Assembly (NCBI GenBank): GCA_017355425.1
Contig: CP070233.1
Location: 4,621,501 to 4,685,500 of the forward strand
Source of the DNA: Dolichospermum sp. DET69
Lineage (GTDB): Bacteria > Cyanobacteriota > Cyanobacteriia > Cyanobacteriales > Nostocaceae
Reading direction: 5' to 3'
DNA length: 64,000 nt
Positions within the stretch are counted from its first letter, which is position 1, and the number at the start of each line of letters is the position of its first letter. Below the pieces are notes generated by a model. It ran no database searches. It worked only from the letters and a program-made list of their open reading frames with translations, and had not been told where the DNA came from. The position numbers were made by a program, and so were the translations under genes. This document shows, one piece after another, positions 33,139 to 64,000 of the stretch.

Positions 33139-34191
33139 ATGACCAAGTATGATTATATTTTTCAATCGAAAGAGACAATAAAAGAATCATTGAATAAACA
33201 AGAAGCAGTAGCAGCAATTGCTGTGATTACAACAATAGTTGATTCGGGTACTGAAGATATAGATGCGGAAAGTTTAGCTGATATTCTCTGGGAATTTGAG
33301 ATATTTGATGAATACTCAGAAGAAGAAATGCTAGAAACAGTGGATAGACTTGTAGAAATTGCCGAGGAAGCTGGATTAGGTTCTTTGTTTAATGCTGCTA
33401 GTGCGGGGATTTCTGATGAAGTAGTTTTAGATGGTTTTGCGGCTGGAGTGATTATGCTTTTAGATGCAGAAAATATGATTATTCCTGCTAATAAAAAGGT
33501 TTTTCTGAAACAATTACAAAAAGCTTTAGAACTGGATGATGAAGAAGCAGAAGAAATTATTAAAGAGGTAATTGACTCCATAGAAGCAGGAGATGAGGAA
33601 GAATATCTAGATGAAGAATATGAAGCTGTAATCTTGAATGAATCGGGTGAACAATTTTATCAATCACCCTTGGGTAACTTTATAGTTCCTGTTCCTCTGG
33701 ATTCTGAACAGGGTGGAAAAATTCAAGCTGAAGAAGGAATGGTGAGCTTTTCTAATGATATTGGCACTTTACTCAGAATTGATTATTATCCTCTCACTCT
33801 AGAACAGATTGATGATCTAGAATCTCAAGAAGATGAAACATATCTTAAATCTGTTCTTGTCAATAAATATGTCCCCCAGACAATTATTTCTCAAGTTCCT
33901 AGTGCTGAAGTCAAGTATACAGAATATTTGGAAGATACTTTGGAAACATCTTACTATGTATTAGTAAATATGCCCAAAGGTTCAACTATATCTAAGCATG
34001 AAAATAACGGCAATGGGATCAGATTAGATGCCTATAGAGGATTATTGTCCTTTGTCAATAATGAATGTTTGTATATAGTTAGTAGTCAACGCAGCTTTGT
34101 AAATGGTGAACTACCTGGTTCAGTCAAAGAAGAGGCTGCGAAAATGAAACAAACTATTTTAGATTTTGTTAGCACGATTGAATTTGCCTAA
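33139..34191 (+). CDS. TerB/DjlA-like helical protein, 350 aa
   Basis: AAGGAG lies before the ATG. The N-terminal 150 residues are acidic and helical (AVAAIAVITTIVDSG.., LVEIAEEAGLGSLFNAA.., ISDEVVLDGFAAGVIMLLDAENMI), the pattern of TerB/DjlA-like metal-binding helical domains, with acidic loops before each helix. The C-terminal 170 residues look like an alpha/beta domain of unknown type (LGNFIVPVPLDSEQGGKIQAEEG.., SSQRSFVNGELPG). Function is unknown; TerB-like domains occur in stress and phage-response clusters. Confidence 0.65.
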   Translation: MTKYDYIFQSKETIKESLNKQEAVAAIAVITTIVDSGTEDIDAESLADILWEFEIFDEYSEEEMLETVDRLVEIAEEAGLGSLFNAASAGISDEVVLDGFAAGVIMLLDAENMIIPANKKVFLKQLQKALELDDEEAEEIIKEVIDSIEAGDEEEYLDEEYEAVILNESGEQFYQSPLGNFIVPVPLDSEQGGKIQAEEGMVSFSNDIGTLLRIDYYPLTLEQIDDLESQEDETYLKSVLVNKYVPQTIISQVPSAEVKYTEYLEDTLETSYYVLVNMPKGSTISKHENNGNGIRLDAYRGLLSFVNNECLYIVSSQRSFVNGELPGSVKEEAAKMKQTILDFVSTIEFA

Positions 34192-34422
34192 GAGCGTCTT
34201 TGATAGCTTGCGTGGCGTAGCCATAAAATCATGATTGATGTATCAAATATCTTTTACCCCACCCTAACCCTCCCCTTATTCCTAAAGTCAGCAACGCCAA
34301 AAATCGTTCAAAAGCTGGTTCCATATTACTTTTGATTTTTGACTTCCGCGAAGCGGTACTAGTACAGCACGGCGTAAATAAAACAACCATTCTCAATCGC
34401 CAAAAAGCTTACGCCATATTAT

Positions 34423-34450
34423 TTTTGACTTTTGACTTTTGACTTTTGAC
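34423..34450. repeat. STRR: TTTTGAC x 4
   Basis: Four consecutive TTTTGAC heptamers; related fragments occur about 95 bp upstream. The whole gap 34192-34762 contains small dispersed repeats (GCGAAGCGGTACTAG, GATAGCTTGCGTGGCG) and no gene. Confidence 0.85.
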
Positions 34451-34762
34451 TTTCGCCTTGCGGTACTAGGGTATTTCTCTTGAATGTAAAATATTATAGT
34501 TGTGGTAATTTTGGAAACATCACCACAACTATAATACAGCTTAAAAATCGTGTAAAACTCAGGATAAAGAAGTAATTGAACGATTTTAACTTTTCAAAGA
34601 TAGTTTTTCATGGTTTTTGAGCATTTTTCTTTGAATTTCTCATAAATTCGCGTTTGTAAATAATTAGGTTCTGTTATACGTTTTACATGATATAGTACAT
34701 AGATTAGAAAATACCCAAAAAATTATACATCTTGTGTATGAAATGTGTCTATTTTCTCCTTT

Positions 34763-34873
34763 AGGGACTTCCAAATAAAAAAATGTCCCAAAACTGACGC
34801 AAAAATTCTCTCTCTGTGTTCTCTGTGCCTCTGTGGTTCGTTTATTGGGATAATTTATTTCTTGGAAGTCCCT
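34763..34873. mobile_element. MITE-like element, 111 bp
   Basis: Inverted ends AGGGACTTCCAA/TTGGAAGTCCCT. The interior contains CTCTCTCTGTGTTCTCTGTG, a repeat known from many cyanobacteria. It has the same kind of ends as 15989-16112. Confidence 0.7.
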
Positions 34874-34939
34874 TAAATATCAAATCCCCAGATAATTTTC
34901 AGAAGTATCTACTAGATTTTTATTTTTCCAATATCTAAC

Positions 34940-35911
34940 ATGATTACACAAATTCAAAATCTGCGGATTTTTTATCCATTCCTAGTGCCATTTATAAGCT
35001 CATCTCAGATTTATTGGTTATACATTTTTTCGGCTTTGTTACTAGCTTTGATTATATATAAATTAGGGTTATCTCAACAAGACGAACAGATAAATTTAAG
35101 ACAGTATCTTTTGCCAAAAGCAGTTTATTTACATCCTTCAGCGATCGCTGAATATAAGTATTATTTTTTATCTTCGCTCTTAGAAATATTTGTAATATTG
35201 CCAGTTATATTCTCTCTACCAAATCTAGCAAATATCATTTGTCATTATTTAACAGAAATTACGCACCTGACAACGCCTTTTTTAATTACCAATCCTCATT
35301 GGTATCATTATGTCATATTGAGTATTTTTGTGGCTTTAGCGGGGGATTTTGCCTATTATTGTTACCATTATTTAGCTCATAGAAGTTCATTCTTTTGGGA
35401 ATTTCATAAAGTCCATCATTCTGCGGATGTACTAACTCCGATGACTGTTTATCGCTCTCATCCCTTTGATTTAATATTAAGTATGATCTTTGCGACGGTA
35501 ATGCTGGGTTCTACCACGGGAATTTGGATTTATTTATTTGGTAATCAAGTCTCCCTTTTATCCATTTATGGAGTTAACTGGGAGATATTCCTATTTTATC
35601 TAACTGGTGCTAACTTACGACATTCTCATATTTGGTTGAACTACCCCTATAAAGTTAGTTATATGTTGATGAGTCCTGCTCAACATCATATTCATCATAG
35701 TGTTGAGCCAAAGCATTATGATAAAAACTTTGGTTATATTCTGTCTTTTTGGGACTGGATATTTGGGACTTTGTATATACCGAAAGGTTATGAAAAGCTG
35801 GATTTTGGTCTGTCAGATGGGGAATCAAGTTTATTTAATAATCCGATTAATTTATTGGTACAGCCATTTAAATCTATTTGGCAAAGTTACAACCAACAAA
35901 TATCTAAGTAG
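34940..35911 (+). CDS. Sterol desaturase / fatty acid hydroxylase family protein
   Basis: 323 residues with four to five membrane segments and the di-iron histidine clusters in order: HYLAHR (HxxxH), FHKVHHS (HxxHH), and HHIHHS (HxxHH) near residue 250. This superfamily hydroxylates or desaturates lipids, sterols or carotenoid-type substrates using a di-iron centre. Its substrate is unknown. It lies 350 bp upstream of the NRPS gene on the same strand, separated by a 3 x 70-bp repeat, so it could supply a hydroxylated fatty acid or modify the peptide, but an independent role is equally possible. Confidence 0.85.
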   Translation: MITQIQNLRIFYPFLVPFISSSQIYWLYIFSALLLALIIYKLGLSQQDEQINLRQYLLPKAVYLHPSAIAEYKYYFLSSLLEIFVILPVIFSLPNLANIICHYLTEITHLTTPFLITNPHWYHYVILSIFVALAGDFAYYCYHYLAHRSSFFWEFHKVHHSADVLTPMTVYRSHPFDLILSMIFATVMLGSTTGIWIYLFGNQVSLLSIYGVNWEIFLFYLTGANLRHSHIWLNYPYKVSYMLMSPAQHHIHHSVEPKHYDKNFGYILSFWDWIFGTLYIPKGYEKLDFGLSDGESSLFNNPINLLVQPFKSIWQSYNQQISK

Positions 35912-49167: not shown

Positions 49168-50484
49168 TTAACTAATTTCTGAATATTTAGTAATCATTGT
49201 TTTCACATTTAGTAAATGTTCTTCAATAATTTCGGGAATTTCGGTATTGGTTTCAATAATTAATTCACCAATGGTATTATTAGCAATTTCATTAATAGTA
49301 TCAATTAAAAGATTTGGCATAGTAATATTGGCTTCAGCAATCTTTTTAATGGTAGCTTTGGGGTTATCTTGCTCAAGAATAGCTTTTAGAACTTGAATTT
49401 CATGACCTGGAAGATGTGCTAAGAAATTATGCCACTCTTTAGGTAAATGTCCCCTATTATGATCTTTTCTATCAACTGTATCCAATGGTTCTAATAATTC
49501 ATCAAAAGGAAATAACTCTAGATAATTTTCGTCATTTTCAGGTAGTGCTGGGGAATCAATTGTTTCTACTTGTTGAAGTAATTCCCAAACTTGATTTTGC
49601 AATAAATCCCGTTCGTCTTGTAAGACAGAAATTTGATTTTGCAGTTGATTGACTTCAGATTTTTGTTCTAGTGTTTTGTTTTGTAAAGAATTGAGAGTAT
49701 TTTCCAGATTAATTCTAGTTGTATTTGTCTGGCTTAGTAAATCATTTTGTTTAGCAATTTCCAGTTCTTGATTTTGAACTTCTATTCGCAGTTCATGAAG
49801 CTTTTTCTCTAGTTGTGGTTTAAGTCTTTCTAACAGAATTACATCATTTTCTAGTTCTTTTTTCTGATATTTGAGTGTATCAAGTTGAGGTTGAATTTGG
49901 TTAATTTCAGCACGAGATGAGTTACAATTTAATTCTAATTTTCGCTTCTGTATAATCAGATTATTGCAACTGTTATTTAGTTCTATATTACTGTTATCTA
50001 AGTTTTTAAATTCGAGTTTTAGATTATTTACTTCCGCTTCAATTTGCTTTTTTTGAGCAGCAAATGTACCTATGTCTCTATGTAAACTATCCCTTTGACT
50101 ACGACAATCTCCAATTTGGTTTTCTAGTTGCTGAGTTTCTGTATCTAATAAATTTCTATATTCTTCTAATTGGTGTATTTCTCTGACAATACGGGATTTC
50201 AATCCTTCTATGTCCCGAATGCGTCTCTGGAGAGAACCAATCATCCTCATTTCATCAATTCTTCGCCGTTTATCAACAAGAAATGCGGCTGAATATGTAG
50301 CCAGAATTGTAATTATCCCGGTGAGAAAAGCTTTAGAAAAATCCCAGTTGGGAACAAGGCTTAAACCAAAACTGACACTAAACGCAGCTATCCCTAAAAC
50401 AACTTGATAATTAACAATTACTGGTTGCATTTTGCGAGGTTTTAGTGTGGTTAAGCTGTTAGCATTATTAGTAATTAACGTCAT
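49168..50484 (-). CDS. Membrane-anchored coiled-coil protein with TerB-C-like domain
   Basis: 438 residues. Two hydrophobic segments at about 25-45 and 52-70, then a continuous coiled coil from about residue 75 to 320 rich in Glu, Gln and Asn heptads, then a C-terminal domain (LPKEWHNFLAHLPGHEIQVLKAIL..IKKIAEANITMPNLLIDTINEIANNTIGELIIE) that follows the TerB-C pattern of tellurite-resistance-type proteins. It is probably a scaffold anchored in the membrane. A second TerB-like protein is at 33139. Function unknown; TerB-C assignment is moderate. Confidence 0.7.
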   Translation of the reverse strand: MTLITNNANSLTTLKPRKMQPVIVNYQVVLGIAAFSVSFGLSLVPNWDFSKAFLTGIITILATYSAAFLVDKRRRIDEMRMIGSLQRRIRDIEGLKSRIVREIHQLEEYRNLLDTETQQLENQIGDCRSQRDSLHRDIGTFAAQKKQIEAEVNNLKLEFKNLDNSNIELNNSCNNLIIQKRKLELNCNSSRAEINQIQPQLDTLKYQKKELENDVILLERLKPQLEKKLHELRIEVQNQELEIAKQNDLLSQTNTTRINLENTLNSLQNKTLEQKSEVNQLQNQISVLQDERDLLQNQVWELLQQVETIDSPALPENDENYLELFPFDELLEPLDTVDRKDHNRGHLPKEWHNFLAHLPGHEIQVLKAILEQDNPKATIKKIAEANITMPNLLIDTINEIANNTIGELIIETNTEIPEIIEEHLLNVKTMITKYSEIS

Positions 50485-50521
50485 TATGCCTCACATTTTT
50501 ATTTGTAAATATACATAATTA

Positions 50522-50742
50522 GTAGGGGCAAACCCCCCGTGGTTGCCCCTGTTGTGGGGTAGGGGCAAACCCCCCGTGGTTGCCCCTGTTGTGGGGTAGG
50601 GGCAAACCCCCCGTGGTTGCCCCTGTTGTGGGGTAGGGGCAAACCCCCCGTGGTTGCCCCTGTTGTGGGGTAGGGGCAAACCCCCCGTGGTTGCCCCTGT
50701 TGTGGGGTAGGGGCAAACCCCCCGTGGTTGCCCCTGTTGTGG
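50522..50742. repeat. Tandem repeat, 6 x 37 bp, hairpin units
   Basis: Units at 50522, 50559, 50596, 50633, 50670 and 50707. Each has AGGGGCAA..TTGCCCCT with CCCCCCGTGG between. The reverse complement of the core equals the hairpin of the 70-bp repeat at 35972. Spacers are not unique, so this is not CRISPR. Confidence 0.95.
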
Positions 50743-50744
50743 AT

Positions 50745-50794
50745 TTAATGAACCACGAAGGCACGAAGGACACGAAGGAAGAAGGAAGGAAGAA
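50745..50794. repeat. Inverted repeat, left arm, flanking DUF815 gene
   Basis: TTAATGAACCACGAAGG, CACGAAGGACACGAAGG and a purine tail. The reverse complement matches 52626-52676 with 2-3 differences in 50. Confidence 0.9.
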
Positions 50795-50869
50795 TAGTAA
50801 AAAGTTATGACTAACTTTTACCATAAGTTTTGTATCTTATTTAAGTGATACCGCTATAATTGATTTTGA

Positions 50870-52219
50870 TCATGAGTCTGGAGTAAGATTTTTAGTTTCA
50901 CCAAATACAGCTAAATCTGCTTTTAAAAAGTCAATAAACTGCCTTGCAGTTCTGCCAGAACGTCCATTATGACGAGTTGCCCATTGTAAAGCTTTGAATT
51001 CTAAATCTTCAGCAGAAATATTGATATTTGCTGCTAGGTGCTGGACTATTTGTAAATAGGTTTTTTGATCTGCGGCTTCAAACGTTAATGTTAGACCAAA
51101 GCGATCGCTAAAAGACAACTTCTCTTGCATTGTATCCCAACTATGAACTTCATTGTTATCCTTGGGATCTGGTCTATCAGTAAAATATTCCCGAATTAAG
51201 TGCCGACGGTTAGAAGTAGCATATACAACCACGTTTTTCGGTCTAGCAGTTATATTTCCTTCCAAAACTACTTTCATTGCTTTAAAAGTATCATCATCTT
51301 CTTCAAAGGAAAGATCATCTACAAAAATAATAAATTTCTGGGGAACGCCTCGCAATAGTTCGACAATTTTGGGTAAATCTGGCAATTCTGACTTAGACAC
51401 TTCTATTAAACGCAGGTTTCTATGACTATACTCATTTAATAGAGCTTTAATTAAAGAAGATTTACCTGAACCACGACTACCATAAAGCAATACGTGCAGT
51501 GCTGTTTCTCCTGACAATAAAAACTCTGTATTTTTCACTAAAGCATCTTTTTGCCACTTGTAACCTACCAATGTAGACAGTTTGACCAAATCGGGGTGAG
51601 GAATACCAACTAACTCCCCATTTTGCCAACGAAAAGCCCAATATTGGGCAAATAAACCAATTCCATATTGCTGATAATAAGCGGCTAAATCTTCTACAGC
51701 ATCACCCCAATTTTCTAACTGAGGAATAGATGCCATTAAACCCGTTTCTATGCCTACAGATTCCGGTTCTCGATACCAGACGACAGGGGAAATAGGTAAA
51801 TGAGTTGCCATTTGCACCCACTCGCTTAAAACTGCACTATTACATTCATATAAACTTTGCAATACTTGTAAATCATGTTGCACAGCCACTACTAACGATG
51901 AGGCTAATTTGCTAAAATTCTGCTGTTGCGCCAATTTACTAAAAGGATTATCCGCAGTGAGAATTTGCTTAATCAGATATTCTTCCCAGGTTTGATGACT
52001 GCTGGCTAAAGCTTGGAAATAACTACCATAAGCTTGGAGGCAATCTCGCCCATCTGCATCAGTATAACGGATGGTTTGTAATAAATTAAGAAAGGTTCTG
52101 CCTACGTCGCTTTCCAGGACAGATTGGTACAGTAAAAGGGAGGCAGCCTGGCGTTGTAGAAGTTGAACTGCTGTATAAGATGTGGTATTTGCCGTAAGCA
52201 TTGCTAGATGATCCATCAA
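50870..52219 (-). CDS. DUF815 family AAA+ ATPase
   Basis: 449 residues. The C-terminal 240 residues are the DUF815 AAA+ domain: Walker A in LLYGSRGSGKSSLIKALL, Walker B in FIIFVDDLSFEEDD, sensor region in VVVYATSNRRHLI, and arginine-rich GRSGRTARQFIDFL. The N-terminal 200 residues are helical and family-typical. DUF815 proteins are conserved ATPases of unknown role, often near proteins with coiled coils. The gene is bracketed by a 50-bp inverted repeat (50745 and 52626). The start may be either of the first two Met codons. Confidence 0.9.
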   Translation of the reverse strand: MMDHLAMLTANTTSYTAVQLLQRQAASLLLYQSVLESDVGRTFLNLLQTIRYTDADGRDCLQAYGSYFQALASSHQTWEEYLIKQILTADNPFSKLAQQQNFSKLASSLVVAVQHDLQVLQSLYECNSAVLSEWVQMATHLPISPVVWYREPESVGIETGLMASIPQLENWGDAVEDLAAYYQQYGIGLFAQYWAFRWQNGELVGIPHPDLVKLSTLVGYKWQKDALVKNTEFLLSGETALHVLLYGSRGSGKSSLIKALLNEYSHRNLRLIEVSKSELPDLPKIVELLRGVPQKFIIFVDDLSFEEDDDTFKAMKVVLEGNITARPKNVVVYATSNRRHLIREYFTDRPDPKDNNEVHSWDTMQEKLSFSDRFGLTLTFEAADQKTYLQIVQHLAANINISAEDLEFKALQWATRHNGRSGRTARQFIDFLKADLAVFGETKNLTPDS

Positions 52220-53225: not shown

Positions 53226-54464
53226 ATGTTATCATCACTGTCTTCTCAAAATGTTATCCGGTATCTGCTCAATGCAGGTCTGTGTAGCGCGGAAGATGGC
53301 GCTGCATATAAATTTGTATTGCCAGAAAATAGTCAGAAGAATCGGAATTTATTGGTAATACTGGCAGATAATCGCCAACTGCTGATTAAACAAGAGCATA
53401 AAATTAATAATGATCTAAGTTCTCATGAACTCTTTAATGAGTGGCTATTTCACCAGTTATTACAGAAATTTCCGGTAATTGGTAATATTGGGGCGATCGC
53501 ATCATCATTGCTACACTTTGATGAGGAAAACTCTATCCTTGTGCAGAGCTATTTAAGCGAATATGTGGAACTAGGAAAATTTTATCAACACAGCAGTATT
53601 TTCCCCACAGAGATTGCCAGCGCGATTGGTGCTACGTTAGCAGGATTACACCGAGCTACGTTTAATAAACGTGAGTATCGTGATTTTATGTCCACTGCAC
53701 CCGCAGGACAGTTTCGCTATAATTTTTACAATCCCGCCCAAGGCATACCATCAATCAATCCAGACACGTTTGGTATAATTCCCACTGAGGCTCTAGAATT
53801 TCATCGTCTTTATCAACGTTACGAAAGTTTAGAATCGGCCATTGCTGATTTAGCTTATGAGTGGAAACCATCTTGTTTAACTCACAACGATTTACACCTA
53901 AGTAATATTTTAGTTCATTCTCGGTGGGAAAAGCTAGATAATTGCTTGATTAGATTAATTGACTGGGAAGCTTGCGGTTGGGGAGATCCAGCTTTTGATT
54001 TAGGAACTCTATTAGCAAGTTATTTAAGAATTTGGCTTTCTAGTTTAATAGTAGATCCGACATTGGAATTAGAAGAATCTTTAAATTTAGCCATGATTCC
54101 TCTAGAGGAACTACAACCTTCAATTCTGGCTTTAATCCGGGCTTATCTTGATGCTTTCCCCATGATTTTAGAATATCATCAGGATTTCATTGTGCGCGTA
54201 GTTAAGTTTGCCGGGTTAGCATTAATTCAACAAATTCAACACAGAATTGAATGCCAAAAATCCTTTGATAATAGTAATTTATGTATGCTCGAAGTTGCTA
54301 AAAGTCTTTTGACTATGCCTGAACAGTCAGTATTAACTATTTTTGGCATCTCCGCATCAGAAATTTTGCAATCTGTCTCCACACTTCAGAAACTTCCGCA
54401 GCCCCATAAAGAACAACAATTAATCCCTCTTTATTACCAAAGGACTCGCTTACGCGGTTGTTAG
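53226..54464 (+). CDS. Phosphotransferase (APH/choline kinase-like), likely RiPP kinase
   Basis: 412 residues. Kinase-like fold: LLIKQEHKIN (ATP-binding Lys region), catalytic loop LTHNDLHLSNILVH (HxDxxxxN), and metal loop LIRLIDWEACGWGDPAFDLG (D-F/W type). In class V lanthipeptide (LxmK) and thioamitide (TvaC) pathways, an APH-like kinase phosphorylates Ser or Thr of a precursor peptide and a HopA1-type partner eliminates the phosphate. A HopA1-family gene follows 45 bp later, so this pair is a plausible dehydratase. No precursor gene is obvious. A 24-codon S/T-rich frame lies upstream at 53125-53199, with no good RBS. Confidence 0.85.
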   Translation: MLSSLSSQNVIRYLLNAGLCSAEDGAAYKFVLPENSQKNRNLLVILADNRQLLIKQEHKINNDLSSHELFNEWLFHQLLQKFPVIGNIGAIASSLLHFDEENSILVQSYLSEYVELGKFYQHSSIFPTEIASAIGATLAGLHRATFNKREYRDFMSTAPAGQFRYNFYNPAQGIPSINPDTFGIIPTEALEFHRLYQRYESLESAIADLAYEWKPSCLTHNDLHLSNILVHSRWEKLDNCLIRLIDWEACGWGDPAFDLGTLLASYLRIWLSSLIVDPTLELEESLNLAMIPLEELQPSILALIRAYLDAFPMILEYHQDFIVRVVKFAGLALIQQIQHRIECQKSFDNSNLCMLEVAKSLLTMPEQSVLTIFGISASEILQSVSTLQKLPQPHKEQQLIPLYYQRTRLRGC

Positions 54465-54509
54465 ACTGATACATATAGTTCTCTAAAATTTGAGGTGCAA
54501 AACAAGTTA

Positions 54510-55592
54510 ATGTTTGATGATTCTACCAATCAAATTTTCCAGTCATTATTCGATATTGCCAGTAATATCCAAATTGAATCTAATTTTTGTATTTACCATC
54601 CCAATTATCAACCTTTTGCTTTGCCCGCTAACATAGCAAGTAGGTTTCAACAAAACTCACCATCTTTGAAGCAGAAATATTTGAACATACTTTTGAGAAA
54701 TTTTCTGTATGGGATTTATTACAATGGTTCACTGCAAACAGTTTTAGCCGCAAATAATCATAGTTGTCAATCTGGGGTAAATTTCCTAGAAAACAATAGT
54801 TTGGGTGTAGATGAAGATTTCTATGAACAGCTACATCATAGCAATCATGGTACAGGACATTATGAACCCAATTGGCAGATTTTGAGAATTGAACCTGATG
54901 GTAGTATGGCTGTTACTAAGAATGGTTTAACCTTATATATTGAGCCGGAATGTCATCTAAAACCCCGAAAAAAGTCGCCTAAAGCGGGGGAATTGATAGC
55001 AATATGGATGCCTAAAAATCGCCTGGAAAATGGCTGTTATGTGGCAGTAAGTAATGTAGCAATAGAAAAGCAAGATTCAAAAAATACTGATTTAGGTGTA
55101 GGGAGAATTTACTTTAATTTTACATCAGCCGGGGCAATTGTCCTGATGGAGAGTTTAACCCAAGCATTAAATAATGCGACTATTGCCTTTAGTTTTCAGG
55201 TTTTTTATAATCCCGCAGCTTATGGGCGTTATGATGCTGGTGTGCTGCATTTTGAACGCCAAAATTACCCAACAATTCGGACTATTCTTCAAGATATTTA
55301 TCAAGAACATCAAGGTTATTTCCAGCCAGAAATTCCATTGTTTACTAAGTTTTTAGCGCCGGGATTAGGGTTAGCAGAAGAACCAAATCAAAAGTTTGCT
55401 CCTCAAGAAAGTTTTGGGATGAACCGTTGTCAAATTGTGGCCAATGCTTTATTGGAGTCTTGGGAAAAGGGTAAAAATGCCCTGGAGGAAAGAATAGAAA
55501 TTATTAATCAACACTTTGCCCAACATTTAATTGATATGCAGCATCCTTATCTGAATCCGGCTTCTGAGGATATTTATCAACCTTTAAGTTGA
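54510..55592 (+). CDS. HopA1 effector family protein, likely RiPP lyase
   Basis: 360 residues from MFDDSTNQIFQSLF at 54510, the start that fits cyanobacterial homologues; a GTG at 54495 is possible. IQIESNFCIYHPNY near the N-terminus, FLYGIYYNGS, GHYEPNWQILRIEPDGSMAV and GRYDAGVLHFERQNY are family-typical. HopA1 was first known as a Pseudomonas effector with a phosphothreonine-lyase-like fold; LxmY and TvaD are relatives that act in RiPP dehydration. It is downstream of the kinase and ends five bases before the convergent dpdI gene. Confidence 0.88.
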   Translation: MFDDSTNQIFQSLFDIASNIQIESNFCIYHPNYQPFALPANIASRFQQNSPSLKQKYLNILLRNFLYGIYYNGSLQTVLAANNHSCQSGVNFLENNSLGVDEDFYEQLHHSNHGTGHYEPNWQILRIEPDGSMAVTKNGLTLYIEPECHLKPRKKSPKAGELIAIWMPKNRLENGCYVAVSNVAIEKQDSKNTDLGVGRIYFNFTSAGAIVLMESLTQALNNATIAFSFQVFYNPAAYGRYDAGVLHFERQNYPTIRTILQDIYQEHQGYFQPEIPLFTKFLAPGLGLAEEPNQKFAPQESFGMNRCQIVANALLESWEKGKNALEERIEIINQHFAQHLIDMQHPYLNPASEDIYQPLS

Positions 55593-55596
55593 GTTT

Positions 55597-56301
55597 TTAG
55601 ATTAATCGAATTTTTAAGGAATCAGCCATACCATAAGTATTAACCCAATCTAAAACTTCTGGAGTGAGGAGATTTAAAGATGCACCTTGATTAGCTGCTG
55701 CTCTGAGTAAGTTTAAAACCGCTTCTGGTACATCATCAGAACTCAGGCTTTCCCAGCACTGTTTTAACTCTGTGATTTGCATTTGAGTTAATTCAAGTTG
55801 ATGGATATTTTTAGGATAATTTACTCGCTTGATTTCTTGATCTAAGTTTCGTATCCGTTGCACATGATGACTAAATGCCTGGACTTTAGACAAAAGATTG
55901 AGCATTTCCTGATTAGTGCTGGGCATATTTTGGGATAAGTAGATTTGCCAATCTGTAGATAATTGCTGTTTTAAGGTTTGGGTAATATTATCTATTCCCT
56001 TCTTGAAAATTTTGGCATCAAAATGTTTATTGTCAATAATCCAATCTGGATTTTCACGAAAATCATTCTCAGCATGGATAATAAAATTTAGAAGATCATC
56101 TAATTTTTTATCCACAGTAATGTTACTAATACCTTTCTCTCGAAAAGCCTTTACAGCTTGCATAATTGTCTGTATTTCAGTGATGAAATTATTAATTTGT
56201 TCTTCTCTGGATTGAAAACCTTGAAGATTATCAGCATAATTTTTCAGTGAAACTTTACGCTGGGATAATTCAATTAATTCTTGTGATTTTTCTATCAACA
56301 T
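55597..56301 (-). CDS. dpdI: Dpd system protein DpdI
   Basis: 234 residues, helical and charged (SQRKVSLKNYADNLQGFQSREEQINNFITEIQ..), without a catalytic motif. It is the last gene of the minus-strand operon, 5 bp after the DpdH gene. The name rests on gene order: in dpd islands a small helical protein follows the large DpdH ATPase. It ends near the HopA1 gene in convergent orientation. Function within the system is unknown. Confidence 0.65.
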   Translation of the reverse strand: MLIEKSQELIELSQRKVSLKNYADNLQGFQSREEQINNFITEIQTIMQAVKAFREKGISNITVDKKLDDLLNFIIHAENDFRENPDWIIDNKHFDAKIFKKGIDNITQTLKQQLSTDWQIYLSQNMPSTNQEMLNLLSKVQAFSHHVQRIRNLDQEIKRVNYPKNIHQLELTQMQITELKQCWESLSSDDVPEAVLNLLRAAANQGASLNLLTPEVLDWVNTYGMADSLKIRLI

Positions 56302-56306
56302 ATCAT

Positions 56307-59300
56307 TTATCCTTTAATTTCTACAAGCAAATTACGTAAATTAGCTAAACCTTGTTGAATAGCTTGATGACTAGTTTCTACGGTTGCACCATCAGAATTT
56401 TCTAAGTCACTAATACTTTGTTTTACTTCTAGTAGAGAAGCATCTAAAAAATTATTAGTATGTTTGATAAAGTCTTCAGTATCTATCATAGTTTTTTGAT
56501 AGTCTTCACTTAGATATGGCAGCAGTTTTCCTATTTGATCATGAGAATTTTCTTGCTCAGATTGTAGCTTCTTCATTGCTTCCATATAGCCAGAAGTAGC
56601 TGTACGTCGAAACTGATCTAGTACAGGTATCATATCCTCAAAGTTTTTTCTACCCCGAAAAACTCCAGCTTCTCTAGCTTTTTCCATTGCCGCTTTTAAT
56701 TTATCAATAATCTCTTTTTTCTTGAAATCATTTCCTAATTCCACTACTAAAGATTGGTAAATAGCTAGTTGTCTTTCTGTTTCTTCTCTGATAGCTTTTT
56801 CTAGTAGTTCATCTACCTGTTGACGGGATTTATGGATTGGTTGAAAAATATCACAATCAACATCAGCAGGAATTTCAGATTGAGGTTGCCAAGATTTTTT
56901 AATCTTTTCTAATGGTTGAATAATTTGAGTTGAATCAATAATTTGAAACTGATTAGAGGCACCTTTAGTACAAGCAATGCGACTTTGGACAATCTCTAAT
57001 AAATCTGGACGGTGTTTTTCGAGAGTAGTAAATAACTTTTTCCAACTAGAAGCGCGATTTACATTTTCTTTGTTATCTACTTCCAGAAATAACGCATTAA
57101 TCAACTTATCTAAGGAATTAGTATCATGTCCGGCCATTGTAGAACCTATGGCCAACAATTCTAATGCTGCTGGTAGAGGATTCCAAGGTTCTCCAGACTC
57201 ACGAGGATAACGACGAATCTCTGCTAAGACGTACTGACTCCATTTTTCTAATTGTTTGCTGTAGGTACGAAAATAGCGATCGCCATCTTTAAACTTCCAA
57301 TGTTTATAATGACTATAGAATAGAATACCCTGGAAAGCTATAGTAGTTTCTCGGAAATCATCAGCATCATCTGGGTTGAGAGGTAGTGATAATTTCACAC
57401 CAGCAATTGTTTCTCTTGTCACCCTGGGACTATAAAAAACAATATTTCTTTGTTTGAAATATTTACTAGAGTTACTAGCAAATGTTTTTTCTAGTAACAT
57501 CTCATTGTCCCATTGAATGTGTTGAACAATAGCGGGAAAAATAAATTCACGTACCTCTGTAGCTACTTGTACCTGTAAAATATTTTGATTATTCCAATCA
57601 TTCAAAATCTCTATTTTTTTAGCTAAGTTTTCGGGGATTCCTTCTATTTTTGTACTTATCTTAACAACAGGCTCAGATTCTGTTGTGTATGTCTTTTGTG
57701 GTTTTTCTTCCCCGACTGTAGTTATAGGTTTGGGAGATTGCTTAATCCTTACTCCTACTCCTATTAGAGGTACATTAAAAGCTGTATGCAACTCCGTTGG
57801 TAAATCACAAAGTTGATCTCCATCATCCCATAAATCTAAAAGTATCTGATGCCGATCAAAATTTTGTGGATCTTTATTTTTAATATCTTGTTGCAACATG
57901 GCACTTAAACGCATTCTGCCAAAGTGTTTTTGCAAACTAACAGATGGAAAATTTCCCTTTTTAATATCATTCCAACCATTGTCTAAAGTGTATTTGAGGA
58001 CATCTTTAATCAGAATGCGGGGATTAAATTCTTTCTCATTTACTTTAGCAAACATCTGTTTTAAAGCTACAGCATTAAAAGGATATAATCCAACCCCATT
58101 AACATCACCAAAACCACTATGACAAGCTTGACGATGTTCGCAGTCATTACAAGCATTTGTTAAAGATTCTTGAACTACATTTTCTTGTTGATAATAACTA
58201 GCCCAATTGGAAATTACCTCATCTTCTAAACGAACAGCATTCAGGTATTTAGATACAAATTCTTGAATATCAACTTGAGTAACTAAAGATTGTTCTCCGA
58301 TTTTTTCAATATCAAGATTGACGCTGAAAGTAACACGCTGTTGCACCGTATCAATTAAATTTTTAAAATAACCTGTAGTACAAGCTAAAGCCGTTCTGAT
58401 AGCACATAGAGGTTTACTTCCTGGTTGTTGCGGTCTAGCTAAAACTGCCTCTAATAATTCTCTATCAATACCTTGTAATTTAGCAAAATCTTCAATTAAT
58501 AAAACTAATTCAACCCCCTGTTCTGCTAAAGTTTCGCGCACTTCACGCATTAGTCTTTGTAAGTCTTCACGACCCAAATTCAAAACTTGAGTAATCGCTT
58601 CATCTAAGTGAAGATTCAACCAATCTACTGTGATTTTTTTAATTTCGTCATTACTCCAAAGTTCAGTATAAAAACTGCGCGACTTTTCTCCAGCTTTTTG
58701 GATATCGAAAATATCATTTGGTAAATCACTAAGAGAAAATTCTCGACGTTCTTCCACAATTTCTAATGTATCTCGATATCCCAGAATATGAATAACTAAA
58801 CGGTGAATAATACCATTGTCTTTCAACCAATAATTTTCTCGAAAAAATGGATCATATAGCAGGGAATTTAGTTCTTCAACCAGATAAATTTCTTCATAAG
58901 TTAGTTTGCTTTTTTCCCGTTTCCCATTGTCCCCAACTGCTGCTGCTAATTGATTAAGTAACTGAACTCGTGCTTGGGTTTCTGTTAATATATTAGTTGC
59001 TCTATTTACCCGCTGCCGATAGTCATCAAATTTTTCTCCCTGCATACCTTGGAGAATTAAATTAATAATGTCTTTTAAATTAGTGCCAATTTTGGGAATT
59101 AATAAAACCTTTCTTTGCTTGGTTGATTGAATATTAGCTGCTAACCAACGAATTAAATGGGATTTACCTGTACCAGAAGTTCCTAATACTGGGACAAAAG
59201 CAAAATCTGGTTCAGCGAGAAAGTCTTTAAGAAATTGCTGTTCATTATAGGGTACTCCTGATGAAGTATCTCTGATCAGTTCATGACGATACATTTTAAT

Positions 59301-59408
59301 AGGATGATGGGTAGCCAAGAAAATGTGATCTTGTGCTTGAGTCGCTTCCACATCCATGACACGATGGACATTTTCTAAATTCCAACAAACAAATTTTTCA
59401 AAAGTCAT
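56307..59408 (-). CDS. dpdH: Dpd system ATPase DpdH
   Basis: 1,033 residues. The N-terminus FEKFVCWNLENVHRV..LATHHPIKMYRH, and FVPVLGTSGTGKSHLIRWLA with Walker A GTSGTGKS at residues 76-83, are typical of DpdH. LVLLIEDFAKLQGIDRELLEA is Walker B. A Cys cluster CNDCEHRQACHSGF may bind zinc. The C-terminal 200 residues are coiled coil (LLEKAIREETERQLAIYQ..KKLQSEQENSHDQ). In dpd islands DpdH acts with the restriction set D-K. It starts 5 bp after dpdG and is followed by dpdI after 5 bp. Confidence 0.85.
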   Translation of the reverse strand: MTFEKFVCWNLENVHRVMDVEATQAQDHIFLATHHPIKMYRHELIRDTSSGVPYNEQQFLKDFLAEPDFAFVPVLGTSGTGKSHLIRWLAANIQSTKQRKVLLIPKIGTNLKDIINLILQGMQGEKFDDYRQRVNRATNILTETQARVQLLNQLAAAVGDNGKREKSKLTYEEIYLVEELNSLLYDPFFRENYWLKDNGIIHRLVIHILGYRDTLEIVEERREFSLSDLPNDIFDIQKAGEKSRSFYTELWSNDEIKKITVDWLNLHLDEAITQVLNLGREDLQRLMREVRETLAEQGVELVLLIEDFAKLQGIDRELLEAVLARPQQPGSKPLCAIRTALACTTGYFKNLIDTVQQRVTFSVNLDIEKIGEQSLVTQVDIQEFVSKYLNAVRLEDEVISNWASYYQQENVVQESLTNACNDCEHRQACHSGFGDVNGVGLYPFNAVALKQMFAKVNEKEFNPRILIKDVLKYTLDNGWNDIKKGNFPSVSLQKHFGRMRLSAMLQQDIKNKDPQNFDRHQILLDLWDDGDQLCDLPTELHTAFNVPLIGVGVRIKQSPKPITTVGEEKPQKTYTTESEPVVKISTKIEGIPENLAKKIEILNDWNNQNILQVQVATEVREFIFPAIVQHIQWDNEMLLEKTFASNSSKYFKQRNIVFYSPRVTRETIAGVKLSLPLNPDDADDFRETTIAFQGILFYSHYKHWKFKDGDRYFRTYSKQLEKWSQYVLAEIRRYPRESGEPWNPLPAALELLAIGSTMAGHDTNSLDKLINALFLEVDNKENVNRASSWKKLFTTLEKHRPDLLEIVQSRIACTKGASNQFQIIDSTQIIQPLEKIKKSWQPQSEIPADVDCDIFQPIHKSRQQVDELLEKAIREETERQLAIYQSLVVELGNDFKKKEIIDKLKAAMEKAREAGVFRGRKNFEDMIPVLDQFRRTATSGYMEAMKKLQSEQENSHDQIGKLLPYLSEDYQKTMIDTEDFIKHTNNFLDASLLEVKQSISDLENSDGATVETSHQAIQQGLANLRNLLVEIKG

Positions 59409-59413
59409 GATTT

Positions 59414-60319
59414 TTACCCTCTCAAAATAATATGTGAAATTTTGCTATTATCATCAACTTCATTATTCGCTTTCGGAAGCAGCATTAAATCTGCATCTGA
59501 ATCTCGAATAAACTGAATATAACCTTCATCTTGAAGACGAAATAAAGCGAAAGCTGTACTAGTAGATAAATAGTTAGGTTGACGATAACCAATATTTGCT
59601 TCTACTTCATCTCTGAATTTACCTGTTTCAAATAAAGGACACTTTTTGGCTAATCTATCAATAAATTCTTTAATGGGAAGTTTTTTATCTTCTTGGTTAG
59701 AAAAGAAATGTTGAAGATTACGTTTAATGTAAGCTGTCGGATCAGGTACTATAACTTTTTTTCCTTCTAAAGCATGAGACCAAGCTAACCCCATGTAGCA
59801 CATCCAGTCATTCATTTGACTATAAAGTGTACCACTGCTTATTTTTAACAATTCACCTACTTTTTGTTCACTGACTAGCTTTTCTACTGTTTCCCAACTT
59901 CCAGAAAAATCATAGATATCTTGTGCTAAAAACCAAGCACAAAGAAGACCAAAATCTTCTTCGTCTTGATTACCAGATGCAAAAAATAATGTAGCTAGAG
60001 TATCAGGTAATAAATATTCACCTAATTGGGGATTACGTGCTGCTTCTGATAACATGAGATTAATCCCAATATCATCCTCAATTTCTACTAAAAGACTAGA
60101 TTTAATACATTCTCTAATATTGTTATGAAACATAGGATGTTTTGCTTTTTTATCACTGGCTTTTTCTTCGGTAGACAGAAGCCGCTCCACCAATTTATTA
60201 GGAGAAAGTATTTGTTCTAATACATTTCTCTTCTCTTTTTGATGTTCTTTAGCTAGTAAATATCGAAAAATTCCTTTAAATCTACTGGGTGTTGCTAAGG
60301 GTTCTTTAAGTACACTCAT
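59414..60319 (-). CDS. dpdG: Dpd system protein DpdG
   Basis: 301 residues from MSVLKEPLATPSRFKGIF at 60319, chosen because it makes a four-base ATGA overlap with the dpdF stop; the longer frame from 60337 is less likely. Helical with a winged-helix-like tail (YLSTSTAFALFRLQDEGYIQFIRDSDADLMLL). Not a recognised enzyme. Name by position between the RecQ-like DpdF and the DpdH ATPase. Confidence 0.7.
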   Translation of the reverse strand: MSVLKEPLATPSRFKGIFRYLLAKEHQKEKRNVLEQILSPNKLVERLLSTEEKASDKKAKHPMFHNNIRECIKSSLLVEIEDDIGINLMLSEAARNPQLGEYLLPDTLATLFFASGNQDEEDFGLLCAWFLAQDIYDFSGSWETVEKLVSEQKVGELLKISSGTLYSQMNDWMCYMGLAWSHALEGKKVIVPDPTAYIKRNLQHFFSNQEDKKLPIKEFIDRLAKKCPLFETGKFRDEVEANIGYRQPNYLSTSTAFALFRLQDEGYIQFIRDSDADLMLLPKANNEVDDNSKISHIILRG

Positions 60320-62799
60320 AAACCAATCTCCATGCAAAAAAGTGCAAATTTTAATTGTTTTCCGGGAAAAATATCTATTAATCGTCGGTCAGGACGACTA
60401 GGATCAGGTGTATCTATAGGCAAGAAAATAATTCGAGGTGCTTGAGAACTATTATTTCTTGTTAAATAGTTATCAAGTAATTTCTCTCCTTGAGGATGAA
60501 AAATCAATGTAGGAATATATGGCATTTTCAAAGGTTGATATTTCTCCCATAAAAAGATGAAAGCATGAGGAATGATATTTGCTTCATTGATTAAAGATTT
60601 TCTTAACTCTGGTGGCACAATCATATTAATAATTCCCTGTTTTATAAACCAGTTGAATAGTTGATTAATGCGTTCTTTGATATTTCTACTGTCTGAGGAT
60701 TCATAAAAAATCAGTAATAATTTATTACCTACAAGTAAGCGTTCTAATTCCTTACCTACAAAAAATTTAGGTTCTTGCCAAACGCGACTAGGAGAGGGCA
60801 TAATTCCGGCAAAGGTCTGTATACCCTTTTGCCGACAGACAAAACAACCTCCACAAGCACGAGAAACTCTCACACCATTTCTGGGTTGTGGTGCATTACG
60901 GGAAGGAATAGTATAGGCTTCTGCAAATATTTCTGAAAGACAACGTTTTGCTTTTAAAGCTTCTCTCATGAGTGCTAAATTTTTATCACTCCAGGCTTTA
61001 CGTTGCCGTCGGATTGGTTCAACTTCATATTCCCAAGTAGATGGATCTAAATGTTTTTCATTGCGGATATTAATAATTCGAGTATTTTGGCTAAATTTAT
61101 GGGTTTCTTCGGAATCAATATCAATTAATTTAGCCCGCTGTAATAATGTTAATGTGCGTAAATTCCAAGTTGTATTTTGTTCACTATTCATATCAATATC
61201 TTTAGTTTCCATAGAAGGAGGATTATTGATAGGAAATCGAAATCTACCATTATTTAATGTTTCTTTAGCATAAAACATACTTTGCCATCGTTGTAACCCT
61301 CTATCAACAGTTATGGCTGAATTGTCATTGATATCTCTAGCTACATCGTAATCTTTATTTGTGTATAATGTCAGTGATAAACAAGCTTTGCCATCTCTGC
61401 CTCCTCTGCCGACTTCTTGATAAAAGCGGTTGATATTTTCGGGAATACAAACATGAATAACTGCCCGCACATCAGCTAGATCTACACCTAATCCAAAGGC
61501 AGATGTAGCAATAACTATATCAATATTTTTTTCTCGCCAATCTTTGATTAATTGTGACCGTTCTTGCTCACTAGATTGACCCGTCATGATCGAACAGCGT
61601 TTAAATTCAGCCTGATCTAATTCCTTTTTTAAGTTCTTGACATCATCAATTATTGTTGCGTAAATAATTAGTGGCCGTGGTAGGTGATACAAGGCTTCAA
61701 TCAACCTTTGTTTTTTCATTTCTTCACTATCACACCATTTAAACCAGTAAGCAGGTTCTGGACGTAGTTGGACAGCAGAAATAACTTGTAAATCTTGACC
61801 AAATAATGATTCTAAAGTATCTAAACAAGATTCAGTTAATGTTGCAGTCAGTAATAATGTAGTAAATGAACTATAGTTATGTAAATTTCTAATAAAACCA
61901 GGGAGTTCTTGAAAAGCTGGACGAAAATCATCACCCCATTGCTCAATCATATGGGCTTCATCAATAACGAAATATTGCAACATTCCCGATTTTGCAGCTT
62001 CATAAATAGAGCTTGCAAGACTACTCATCAGGCTTTCAGGTGAAGTAAAAATTATTTTTTGAGTTCCTGCCCAAATGCGATTTCGTATCCCTTGTCTCCT
62101 GGCTTTTCCTGCTGGAGAATCATCTTTATAATATGCTGTTGGATGATTAACAAATTGTTTTAATGCCCGTTCTTGATCTATTGCTAGTGCTGTTGTTGGC
62201 ACAACTACCACACTAACACCACCATCTTGAGAACTTAATAAAGCTGGTAACTGAGCGCAAAGACTTTTCCCTGATCCTGTGGGTAAATTAATGATTAAAG
62301 TTGAGTTTTTTGGCGCAGTTAAAACTGCACGAATAGCTTCTCTTTGTCCAATGCTGAGATATTTATCTAACCGCATTGTTTGCAAAAATGGATCACCGTT
62401 AGCTGATTCATGATGACGGCGAATTTCTTCTTTAAATAACGGTGTATCTGGAGGATATTGATTTGTACAATCAAGCCATTTGGGTTGCCAAGGACGAGGA
62501 CTAATCAGAAAGTAGTCTTGATCTTCACTCAGTATTTTTATACCACATCGTTCCCAAATATCTCGATTAGGAAAAGTATTGTTTCGAGGGATTTGCAGGA
62601 AAATTTGCGAATTTCCATCCTGCTTTTCATCTTCAAACCGCAAGATATGACGAATTAAACTGGCAATATCTCCTAAGCCAGATTTATTCCGCAAGGCATT
62701 AAATAAACGTTGGTAACACCCTTCTTTAAAATCGCTGATATCTTCAGGAATGTTGCCAGTTTTAAGAATTTCCCTCAGTTTAATAAATGAGTCTGTCAT
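60316..62799 (-). CDS. dpdF: Dpd system RecQ-like helicase DpdF
   Basis: 827 residues. Walker A PTGSGKS at 173-179, VIDEAHMIEQWGDDFRPAFQ (DEAH), TATLTE, then IATSAFGLGVDLADVRAVIH and YQEVGRGGRDGKACLSL (motif VI), the RecQ order. The C-terminal part has a Cys cluster ACGGCFVCRQKG that may bind metal. DpdF is the RecQ-type helicase of the 7-deazaguanine DNA modification islands and is needed for restriction, not for base insertion. Its start overlaps the dpdE stop by four bases (ATGA), and its stop overlaps dpdG, so the genes are translationally coupled. Confidence 0.85.
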   Translation of the reverse strand: MTDSFIKLREILKTGNIPEDISDFKEGCYQRLFNALRNKSGLGDIASLIRHILRFEDEKQDGNSQIFLQIPRNNTFPNRDIWERCGIKILSEDQDYFLISPRPWQPKWLDCTNQYPPDTPLFKEEIRRHHESANGDPFLQTMRLDKYLSIGQREAIRAVLTAPKNSTLIINLPTGSGKSLCAQLPALLSSQDGGVSVVVVPTTALAIDQERALKQFVNHPTAYYKDDSPAGKARRQGIRNRIWAGTQKIIFTSPESLMSSLASSIYEAAKSGMLQYFVIDEAHMIEQWGDDFRPAFQELPGFIRNLHNYSSFTTLLLTATLTESCLDTLESLFGQDLQVISAVQLRPEPAYWFKWCDSEEMKKQRLIEALYHLPRPLIIYATIIDDVKNLKKELDQAEFKRCSIMTGQSSEQERSQLIKDWREKNIDIVIATSAFGLGVDLADVRAVIHVCIPENINRFYQEVGRGGRDGKACLSLTLYTNKDYDVARDINDNSAITVDRGLQRWQSMFYAKETLNNGRFRFPINNPPSMETKDIDMNSEQNTTWNLRTLTLLQRAKLIDIDSEETHKFSQNTRIINIRNEKHLDPSTWEYEVEPIRRQRKAWSDKNLALMREALKAKRCLSEIFAEAYTIPSRNAPQPRNGVRVSRACGGCFVCRQKGIQTFAGIMPSPSRVWQEPKFFVGKELERLLVGNKLLLIFYESSDSRNIKERINQLFNWFIKQGIINMIVPPELRKSLINEANIIPHAFIFLWEKYQPLKMPYIPTLIFHPQGEKLLDNYLTRNNSSQAPRIIFLPIDTPDPSRPDRRLIDIFPGKQLKFALFCMEIGL

Positions 62800-64000
62800 T
62801 CGTCACCCTCCTGAGTTAGTTGTAAGTTTCGTCCAGAAATGATCATAAAACCCACAGAATCTAAGCGAATATGTGGATGTTGAATCCCCGCAATTATTTC
62901 TTGATTTAATTCTGTTTCTGCTAAGAGTTCTTGCTGCAATACTGAATCATTAATCTGCTCTTCTTGATTAATTCTATTTATTCTTAAATGGAGTTGTTCT
63001 AACCTTTTACTAAGCTTTTGTTCAGCCCGTTTAGCAAATTTTTCACACAATTTCTGAAAATCTGGACGTTGATATATGATGTTTAAAGCCGAGTTACTAG
63101 CATTATGACAAAAACCTGCCCACTTGCTAGATTCAACAAAATTATCAAGAATAGATAGCCTATTTTTAGCTAAGTTGTAATCTCGGTATGGACTACCTTT
63201 AGCTTTATATGGAGTTTGTAATATTTTCAGTAGTTCTAAGTCATCAACAATGCTCATAGGTTCAGATCGAGCATCAATAAATATGGTTTGTAATCTGGGT
63301 GGAAATAGCCCATCTGCTAGTCTTTTCAGGGTTCTTAATTTAGCCGGGTTTGTAGTACATTTGGCTAAGTTTGTTTCGATAATATAGTTAAATCGAAAAC
63401 CAAACCATTCCATCCTTTCACTAGTGTTCCAAGATGGGGCAACTCTCCACATAGCAAAACATTGTCCTCGATCATCCCAATGAATATAAGATGATAGGGA
63501 GTCTATAAATCTTTCACCGATTCGATAAAGATTAACTCCAGTATTTTTATTAGCAATTCTCCGGTTAAAAGTGCCAATGTTATTTGTACAAGTTGCAAAG
63601 TGAGTTTTGATTTCGTCTACTGAAATTAAGGTATGTTGACTAGGGTAATAGCTAATTACTCCTTCTTTATTTGTATCTAGACTCCGCCGAAAGTTTATGG
63701 TTTGACAAATCCAAGTTTCAGTTGCTTGCTGCATTTGCTGATGACAAGCATCATCATTATCTAATGCTTGAAAATATTCTGTTGCCTGATCATCAAGAGC
63801 ATCAATTTCATCAAGGGCATATTGTTCATTGATCTTCAATATTTCGGCTTTGATTTGTTCCTTAAGTGGTTCAATTATTTCTAATATTCCCACAGCACTT
63901 AATTGAAACAAAACTGTTTCTAATTCTGGCAGTTTTTCATCTATGTAAAATTGTAGACTAGCAATTGATTGTTGAAAGATAGTAAAACCATTTTTCAACA
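62796..64000 (-). CDS. dpdE: Probable DpdE (SNF2-type helicase), C-terminal part
   Basis: About 401 residues; the frame is open to the window edge, so the N-terminus and any helicase motifs are outside. The visible part is helical with IYRIGERFIDSLSSYIHWDDRGQCFAMWR, the style of RapA/SNF2 C-terminal accessory domains, and ends GRNLQLTQEGDE. The ATGA overlap with dpdF and gene order E-F-G-H-I support DpdE. Identity cannot be proved without the motor domain. Confidence 0.6.
   Translation of the reverse strand, partial: LKNGFTIFQQSIASLQFYIDEKLPELETVLFQLSAVGILEIIEPLKEQIKAEILKINEQYALDEIDALDDQATEYFQALDNDDACHQQMQQATETWICQTINFRRSLDTNKEGVISYYPSQHTLISVDEIKTHFATCTNNIGTFNRRIANKNTGVNLYRIGERFIDSLSSYIHWDDRGQCFAMWRVAPSWNTSERMEWFGFRFNYIIETNLAKCTTNPAKLRTLKRLADGLFPPRLQTIFIDARSEPMSIVDDLELLKILQTPYKAKGSPYRDYNLAKNRLSILDNFVESSKWAGFCHNASNSALNIIYQRPDFQKLCEKFAKRAEQKLSKRLEQLHLRINRINQEEQINDSVLQQELLAETELNQEIIAGIQHPHIRLDSVGFMIISGRNLQLTQEGDE

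Follow-up and report, generated by a model that had tools for sequence, protein, structure and literature searches.

In the usual picture of Dpd systems, the restriction genes attack DNA that lacks the mark made by DpdA, DpdB and DpdC. The clusters of Salmonella Montevideo, Enterobacter and others comprise dpdA to dpdK, and in Enterobacter cloacae pPOL9A the genes run E-F-G-H-I-J-K-D, with I assigned by position, together with B and A. A 2025 EcoSal Plus review states that the activity tied to this mark has seen no further exploration (PMC12707154). The stretch of DNA analysed here, a 64,000-nucleotide window (C1:4621501-4685500) of the 6.04-Mb genome of Dolichospermum sp. DET69 (2 contigs, 99.99% complete), carries at its right end five minus-strand genes whose products are assigned by their sequence profiles, below cut-off in the case of DpdI, to the DpdI, DpdH, DpdG, DpdF and DpdE families. 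The E-F-G-H-I order, the orientation and the homologous proteins are shared with the Salmonella and Enterobacter clusters. Contrary to these, genome-wide profile searches found no DpdA, DpdD, DpdJ or DpdK over cut-off in the window genome, and DpdB, DpdC and the preQ0 synthesis genes are absent from the named neighbours, no genome-wide search having been aimed at them. The reading favoured here, which is given about an even chance, is that the locus derives from the Dpd restriction operon as a free-standing set of five genes that works without modification, by the putative mechanism set out below.

The gene dpdE extends beyond the window. Its C-terminal 400 amino acids (aa) are encoded at 62796..64000, and the whole gene, completed from the next stretch (C1:4684296-4687610, ending at the window-equivalent position 66110), encodes a SNF2/RapA-like helicase of 1104 aa; the call is based on the list of open reading frames (ORFs), NCBIfam and PADLOC. 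Downstream lie dpdF (60316..62799), which profile scans identify as a RecQ-like SF2 helicase of 827 aa whose C-terminal part has a Cys cluster (CGGCFVC, starting at residue 649), and dpdG (59414..60319), called from profile scans and an AlphaFold2 model and counting 301 aa from its ATG, or reaching to 60337 if an upstream TTG is taken as the start. They are followed by dpdH (56307..59408), a 1033-aa P-loop ATPase similar to AAA+ proteins and to the origin recognition complex (ORC) in profile scans and fold matches, and by dpdI (55597..56301), a small protein of 234 aa recognised by a sub-cut-off NCBIfam match and its conserved position. All five are on the minus strand. The E/F and F/G junctions are ATGA overlaps and the G/H and H/I junctions 5-bp gaps, so that the ORF coordinates bear out the operon structure of the original prediction, which had been made from the letters of the window alone.

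The family assignments of that prediction also hold, as the order, sizes and profile hidden Markov models all agree with dpdE-F-G-H-I. DpdH, DpdF and DpdG exceed the curated NCBIfam cut-offs (939 bits against 450, 912 against 550, and 124 against 80, respectively). The C-terminal part of DpdE, scored by itself, reaches 325 bits in NCBIfam for a cut-off of 500, and PADLOC assigns both ends of the gene to DpdE (476 bits for the N-terminal 437 aa and 208 bits for the C-terminal 400 aa). DpdI stays below its cut-off, with an NCBIfam match of 49.2 bits for 150 required, which nevertheless spans profile positions 2-239 of 239, and with 14 bits in a second profile scan. On the Nostoc C057 plasmid, dpdI reaches a similarly low 37 bits, and a DpdI-family gene occupies the same place in all six lineages, as grouped here, that carry E-I only. 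The designation of the locus as the restriction half of a Dpd system can thus be kept as far as kinship with the restriction genes goes; only five of the eight such genes are present, with D, J and K not over cut-off.

The dpdA that the original prediction expected in the genome, and whose absence it had counted against itself, was not found. The DpdA profile NF041059 gave zero matches at E <= 0.001 and also at E <= 1. The Pfam profile PF01702 for the tRNA-guanine transglycosylase (TGT) fold, searched at E <= 10, retrieved one real gene and one 13-bit fragment, the former being the tRNA guanosine(34) transglycosylase Tgt (529 bits in NCBIfam). A DpdA encoded elsewhere in the window genome was rejected on these grounds, and the locus therefore falls outside the definition of a Dpd system. 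With the DpdJ profile, four partial matches scored 20-32 bits; they are taken to be helicase motifs in other genes, and matches also occur in 11 of 14 control genomes.

The closest DpdA-bearing homologues are found in six full cyanobacterial clusters (L refers to loci and G to genomes of the survey of relatives): those of Amazonocrinis (L069), Chamaesiphon (L074), L078, Aliterella (L080), G027 and G103. Their E, F and H proteins are about 47-64% identical to those of the window, and they differ from it in carrying DpdA, accompanied in G027 by QueC, QueD and QueE. DpdK is over cut-off in four of the six, L080 and G103 being the exceptions. In complete clusters, dpdE and the modification genes are linked, the latter lying upstream. 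The cyanobacterial DpdA has 711-733 aa and an N-terminal DUF6884/DpdC-like domain in the two copies scanned (L044:3008-5143 and L042:5485-7686, minus strand), which implies that mark insertion and conversion may be carried out by one protein. The DpdA frames of three Bacillota have 678-692 aa, a length which suggests that they also hold a DpdC-like domain.

Besides dpdA, five of the six clusters contain, between dpdA and dpdE, a conserved 289-aa gene, here called gene X (copies at L042:4347-5216, L069:1926-2753, L074:604-1467 and L080:2339-3178), which was not seen in G027. Gene X is near full-length in 4 of 31 genomes, all of them DpdA-bearing, and is represented by fragments of 25-28 codons in four more. 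The copy scanned had no Pfam, NCBIfam, PADLOC, PHROG or phage match. The DpdA profile matches inside it at 13.5 bits, a hint of a TGT-like fold. As a hidden modifier, gene X was rejected for the window genome, where its profile finds nothing.

If the system were nevertheless a complete restriction-modification (R-M) system, an unlinked and unrecognised enzyme would have to label the DNA of the host, whether by 7-deazaguanine or in another way. Enzyme families can indeed be missed in this way, since phage DpdA2 escapes DpdA searches according to the portion of the literature considered (PMC6884629), and DpdB, DpdC and the preQ0 genes lay outside the genome-wide searches. This explanation is considered decidedly unlikely, as the only real TGT-fold gene is the ordinary Tgt, the mark genes of full cyanobacterial clusters are linked to dpdE, and the gene X profile is empty. 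So is the profile of the DpdA2-like family phrog_10773, which gave no match in the window genome and one of 13 bits among 28 genomes, its reach on cyanobacterial proteins being uncertain. That family was identified from a Vibrio phage nt-1 gene annotated as hypothetical, which is presumed to be DpdA2 from its place between the GTP cyclohydrolase and ExsB genes. A further argument against a distant marking enzyme comes from the neighbourhoods of the six E-I-only lineages: no gene besides E-I is common to all of them within the flanks examined (up to about 10 kb per side, in some cases more, and less at contig ends). One flank family occurs in three of the lineages and consists of ABC-transporter ATPases in the members read by eye; two further families occur in two lineages each.

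The original prediction expected the modification genes beyond the right end of the window, a sensible guess given that those of relatives sit upstream of dpdE. The sequence past 64000 holds instead a YbgC-type thioesterase gene (match below its cut-off), menE, menC, menA, and genes for isochorismate synthase, proA, an ISH3 transposase and gas vesicles. The start of dpdE is about 190 bp from the thioesterase gene. On the other side, a HopA1-like gene stops at 55592 and the convergent dpdI at 55597, which leaves the left edge of the insert at 55593..55596 (no strand). Used as a query, the thioesterase/menE stretch was recovered from all 16 genomes searched in the genus, among which dpdE is confined to the loci of three carriers (flanks examined over 1.5 kb). 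In 8 of the 13 non-carriers the HopA1-like gene lies beside the thioesterase gene, 0.1-0.9 kb apart, in some cases with a small ORF in between; the remaining five have other genes or a contig end at the site. From the gene-to-flank distances and these empty sites it follows that the cassette here consists of E-F-G-H-I alone. The insert of about 10.5 kb between the HopA1-like gene and the thioesterase/men cluster is made of the five genes only, with no integrase or other cargo within it, and its GC content (0.34-0.38) agrees with that of the flanks (0.36-0.38). Both flanks of G048 are as in the window genome; G070 has the same thioesterase side and different genes past dpdI. No sign was seen at the locus of the edge of a defence island, as which it had been predicted.

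Across cyanobacteria, DpdH is over cut-off in 10 of 386 genomes sampled, with three more weak matches that were left uncounted, and in three of nine listed genomes of the own genus. Among these ten DpdH-bearing cyanobacteria, DpdA is over cut-off in three, DpdD in three and DpdJ in three, the genome-wide searches for DpdD and DpdJ having covered 10 genomes. A wider scan, with one genome per species and a DpdH alignment as query, yielded 30 loci, of which 26 come from records named as cyanobacteria, three from Bacillota and one from a bin labelled Tatlockia; DpdA is over cut-off in 7 of these 30 genomes. A 4-kb contig (L077) was left unclassified, outside the count of 29 loci and the trees. E-I alone make up 14 of the 29 (L053, L056-L060, L063-L065, L067, L068, L070, L073 and L082), five of which are cut by contig ends (L056, L057, L065, L067 and L082), so that their state derives in part from genome-wide searches for K and A. 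Another eight have E-I with J, K and D and no DpdA over cut-off (L054, L055, L061, L062, L066, L071, L072 and L075); in L054 and L055 the stretch examined ends before DpdD, which for L055 was found in the genome search as G076. The genomes of the last seven contain DpdA (L069, L074, L076 and L078-L081). The flank ORF sizes of the Tatlockia locus (L067) match by eye those of Chlorogloea (L068), and the former is probably misbinned.

The distribution of DpdK follows the same classes. It is over cut-off in 16 of 34 genomes, namely all eight of the J/K/D group, six of the seven that bear DpdA (not L080), G197 and G027, and in none of the 15 E-I-only genomes, the window genome included. Sub-cut-off matches to the DpdA profile were found in G395 (L062, 67 bits), G387 (L054, 44 bits), G393 (L060, 22 bits) and G404 (L071, 20 bits), and matches of 53-78 bits also stand alongside true DpdA in four DpdA-bearing genomes; the two strongest make the lack of DpdA less firm for L062 and L054.

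The five-gene state is not one clade. In a 35-row tree of the concatenated F, G and H proteins, at least four changes of the E-I-only label with starred support are required, and an approximately unbiased (AU) test on 32 rows, without Deino, L076 and L082 (quick tree, LG+G4), rejects a single E-I-only clade (p = 0.00197). The trio of the own genus is placed among Nostocales that have J/K/D and in some cases DpdA, its nearest rows being Dolichospermum sp. ST_sed8 (93% identity over the F-G-H columns) and Anabaena sp. UHCC 0187, and the E-I-only Cyanothece locus L070 is sister to the DpdA-bearing G103. Change counts by themselves cannot separate gain from loss, but scars can. About 25 last codons and the stop of gene X persist 126-141 bp upstream of dpdE in L058 and L064, and also before the shortened dpdF of L059; a gene X fragment is present in the L057 genome as well (contig C81). 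As these four loci belong to the same clade, the scar is counted as one event, and it indicates that the E-I-only loci of that clade arose when full clusters lost their marking genes. No gene X scar turned up in the genus of the window. Other remains include a 25-codon gene X fragment in the L066 genome, a broken piece of dpdA in L054 and, on the Nostoc C057 plasmid, a weaker 16-codon match to gene X (E 0.03).

Such losses raise the question of whether the five genes are themselves what is left of a Dpd cluster in decay. Clear signs of decay are seen in the J/K/D group without DpdA: J is split into two ORFs in L054 and is short in L061 and L071, D is short in L061, H is in two ORFs in L055 and F in two in L071, DpdJ being full-length in L062, L066, L072 and L075. 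From L059, dpdE and the beginning of dpdF have been lost, and G197 is damaged too. On the other hand, the five genes are all open in the nine whole E-I-only loci (the window, L053, L058, L060, L063, L064, L068, L070 and L073), despite a divergence from the window of 36-52% in E, F and H outside the own genus, and the same genes are kept in loci that are not monophyletic. Within the own genus, the ratio of nonsynonymous to synonymous substitution rates (dN/dS) against G070 is 0.21 for E, 0.25 for F, 0.35 for G, 0.22 for H and 0.24 for I, next to 0.18, 0.25 and 0.12 for the flanking menE, menC and menA; against the very close G048 it ranges from 0.14 to 0.63 with few changes, H not being computed. 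E and F retain intact DEAH and SAT/TAT motifs and H an intact Walker A motif, and the GKT/GKS of E and F are present by eye. Purifying selection still maintains E-F-G-H-I, the decay reading is already weakened for E-I-only loci, and it is regarded as very improbable.

G197, which has J/K/D, appears from its gene structure to be a Dpd cluster now losing its marking enzyme, with dpdA in two ORFs (L033:1965-2861 and 2900-3721) and a shortened dpdE (L032:17349-20000 plus L033:1-45). L062, L072 and L075, from the group with J/K/D and no over-cut-off DpdA, look whole and pose a sharper puzzle of self-protection. The Nostoc plasmid locus L007 also has E-I with J/K/D and no DpdA over cut-off, judged on the plasmid stretch only.

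In the favoured reading, the five proteins would form an ATP-driven complex for DNA surveillance, with DpdE (SNF2/RapA-like) and DpdF (RecQ-like) as its motors. DpdH, which has the Walker A sequence GTSGTGKS, an IED motif, a Cys cluster (C420/C423/C429) and a long helical C-terminal half, would act as AAA+ scaffold or switch, DpdI as adaptor and DpdG as winged-helix DNA reader. The AlphaFold2 model of DpdG is confident and contains a winged-helix-like N-terminal unit (residues 4-110); its secondary structure suggests further such units, and the protein probably binds DNA. Incoming DNA would be hindered without a 7-deazaguanine self mark and without DpdK, the phospholipase D (PLD) nuclease of Dpd. 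What is sensed in the invader would probably be ends, single strands, replication forks or supercoiling, and the outcome would be either a block of its replication or transfer of its DNA to host nucleases. The broader proposal, in which somewhat less confidence is placed, short of even, is that E-I represent a self-sufficient defence class that arose repeatedly by shedding the mark and D/J/K, and that tells foreign from self without base modification and with no dedicated nuclease.

Several points weigh against this reading. No nuclease was recognised among the five genes, which leaves the last step of their action unexplained. The DpdH model is of middling confidence (predicted local distance difference test, pLDDT, 70; predicted template modelling score, pTM, 0.43), and the relatives are mostly draft genomes. 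The own-genus trio is altered at the conserved columns R303, L307, G398, D457 and M553 of F and Q257 and R455 of H, with no such change in E, G or I. Selection shows function and not its kind, and the defence activity of E-I alone is a prediction from sequence. Restriction in Salmonella reportedly requires D and K, and possibly J, in addition to E, G and I (Yuan et al. 2018); if this is right, E-I alone should not restrict in that way. According to a review (PMC12707154), the eight restriction genes reduced transformation after transfer to a naive host, which favours the full set and not E-I.

Two helicases and an AAA+ ATPase without a nuclease would also suit a takeover of E-I for DNA repair, replication-fork handling or chromosome upkeep, with defence abandoned. 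RapA and RecQ are near sequence relatives, and ORC subunits appear among the fold matches. A housekeeping role would, however, be expected to show a more even distribution than the patchy one seen, with DpdH in 10 of 386 cyanobacteria and three of nine own-genus genomes, and the insert missing at its site in at least 8 of the 13 other genomes of the genus; the takeover is accordingly rated as unlikely.

The absence of a mark can alternatively be turned into an inverted, type IV-like logic, in which the mark has been lost and E-I attack 7-deazaguanine DNA, for example that of phages with their own DpdA. Since host DNA is unmarked by any DpdA found, a mark detector would be safe for self. Phages with 7-deazaguanine exist, CAjan among them, of which a dpdA-negative derivative has been published (PMC6884629), and GrwAB is reported to act on phages modified in this way, with escapers that are mutated in DpdA (PMC12137116). 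Little probability is given to this logic, for which the nuclease is likewise not recognised and no consistent residue change appears in E, F, G, H or I across the E-I-only lineages: a single column (E 559) is altered in at least three lineages, the own one excluded, while the other four proteins have no such column, and no residue signature of the E-I-only state was found. Moreover, a cyanobacterial DpdA query had one match in 50,697 phage records, and that came from human faeces.

DpdH, too, had one match among these phage records. The record MT835580.1, a 55-kb 'Bacteriophage sp.' from human faeces, has matches to DpdA (36%) and DpdH (25%) at 34139-35446 and 49231-50865, so that a Dpd cluster may be carried here by a phage or, if the label is wrong, by some other mobile element.

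Among other defence systems, BREX and DISARM are multi-gene, motor-rich and R-M-like; no methyltransferase, PglZ or PLD nuclease was recognised among the five genes here. The closest working analogy to the free-standing five-gene system is with Hachiman and Gabija, which in the published excerpts defend by sensing the state of DNA without a self mark; no membership by sequence is claimed, and Hachiman has an identified nuclease, HamA, in those excerpts, while none was recognised in E-I.

A restriction half that is kept by selection without a known self mark clashes with the usual Dpd picture. Either the E-I core never reads the mark or E-I have been rewired, and the full, A-less and E-I-only versions of related cyanobacteria amount to natural gene deletions that make both options directly testable. 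Named strains with these states are Amazonocrinis nigriterrae CENA67 for the full cluster, Dulcicalothrix desertica PCC 7102 and Calothrix sp. PCC 7103 for E-I plus J/K/D with no over-cut-off DpdA, and Anabaena sp. UHCC 0187 for E-I only. Under the broader proposal of a self-sufficient class, E-I would separate the part of Dpd that senses from those that mark and cut. The survey of the GATOR-GC preprint, in the part that describes it, demanded dpdA and dpdB and reported one cyanobacterium, without restriction genes (PMC11888242); DpdA-less loci are invisible to surveys with that demand. A literature search found no description of DpdA-less E-I operons, a weak negative as key Dpd papers lay outside its coverage. 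The YprA preprint, in the passage concerned, regards DpdJ as the YprA helicase of Dpd and associates it with a PLD nuclease (PMC12458937).

A different arrangement is seen on plasmids of Methylobacterium and Skermanella (L116:12763-26756 and L117:12551-26365), where a relative of DpdH is preceded by a helicase gene, small genes stand at the G and I places (roles by position), and a 6.3-6.5-kb gene for an AAA protein and another large gene replace J/K/D. DpdA, DpdB and QueC/D/E are nearby on the Methylobacterium plasmid, and DpdB, QueE and a QueD-like gene on that of Skermanella. This gene content suggests that F-G-H-I may be a portable core.

Other genes of the window lie to the left of the insert. 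A kinase gene with an LxmK match of 71 bits (cut-off 315) and, after it, the HopA1-family gene (203 bits) occupy 53226-55592, a pair also present at this site in several relatives of the genus and presumably a class V lanthipeptide synthetase pair. Further left, at 49168-52219, a coiled-coil TerB-C protein with 50 bits to Shango SngA (PADLOC) is encoded beside a DUF815 ATPase, and the two genes are possibly a separate small ATPase system.

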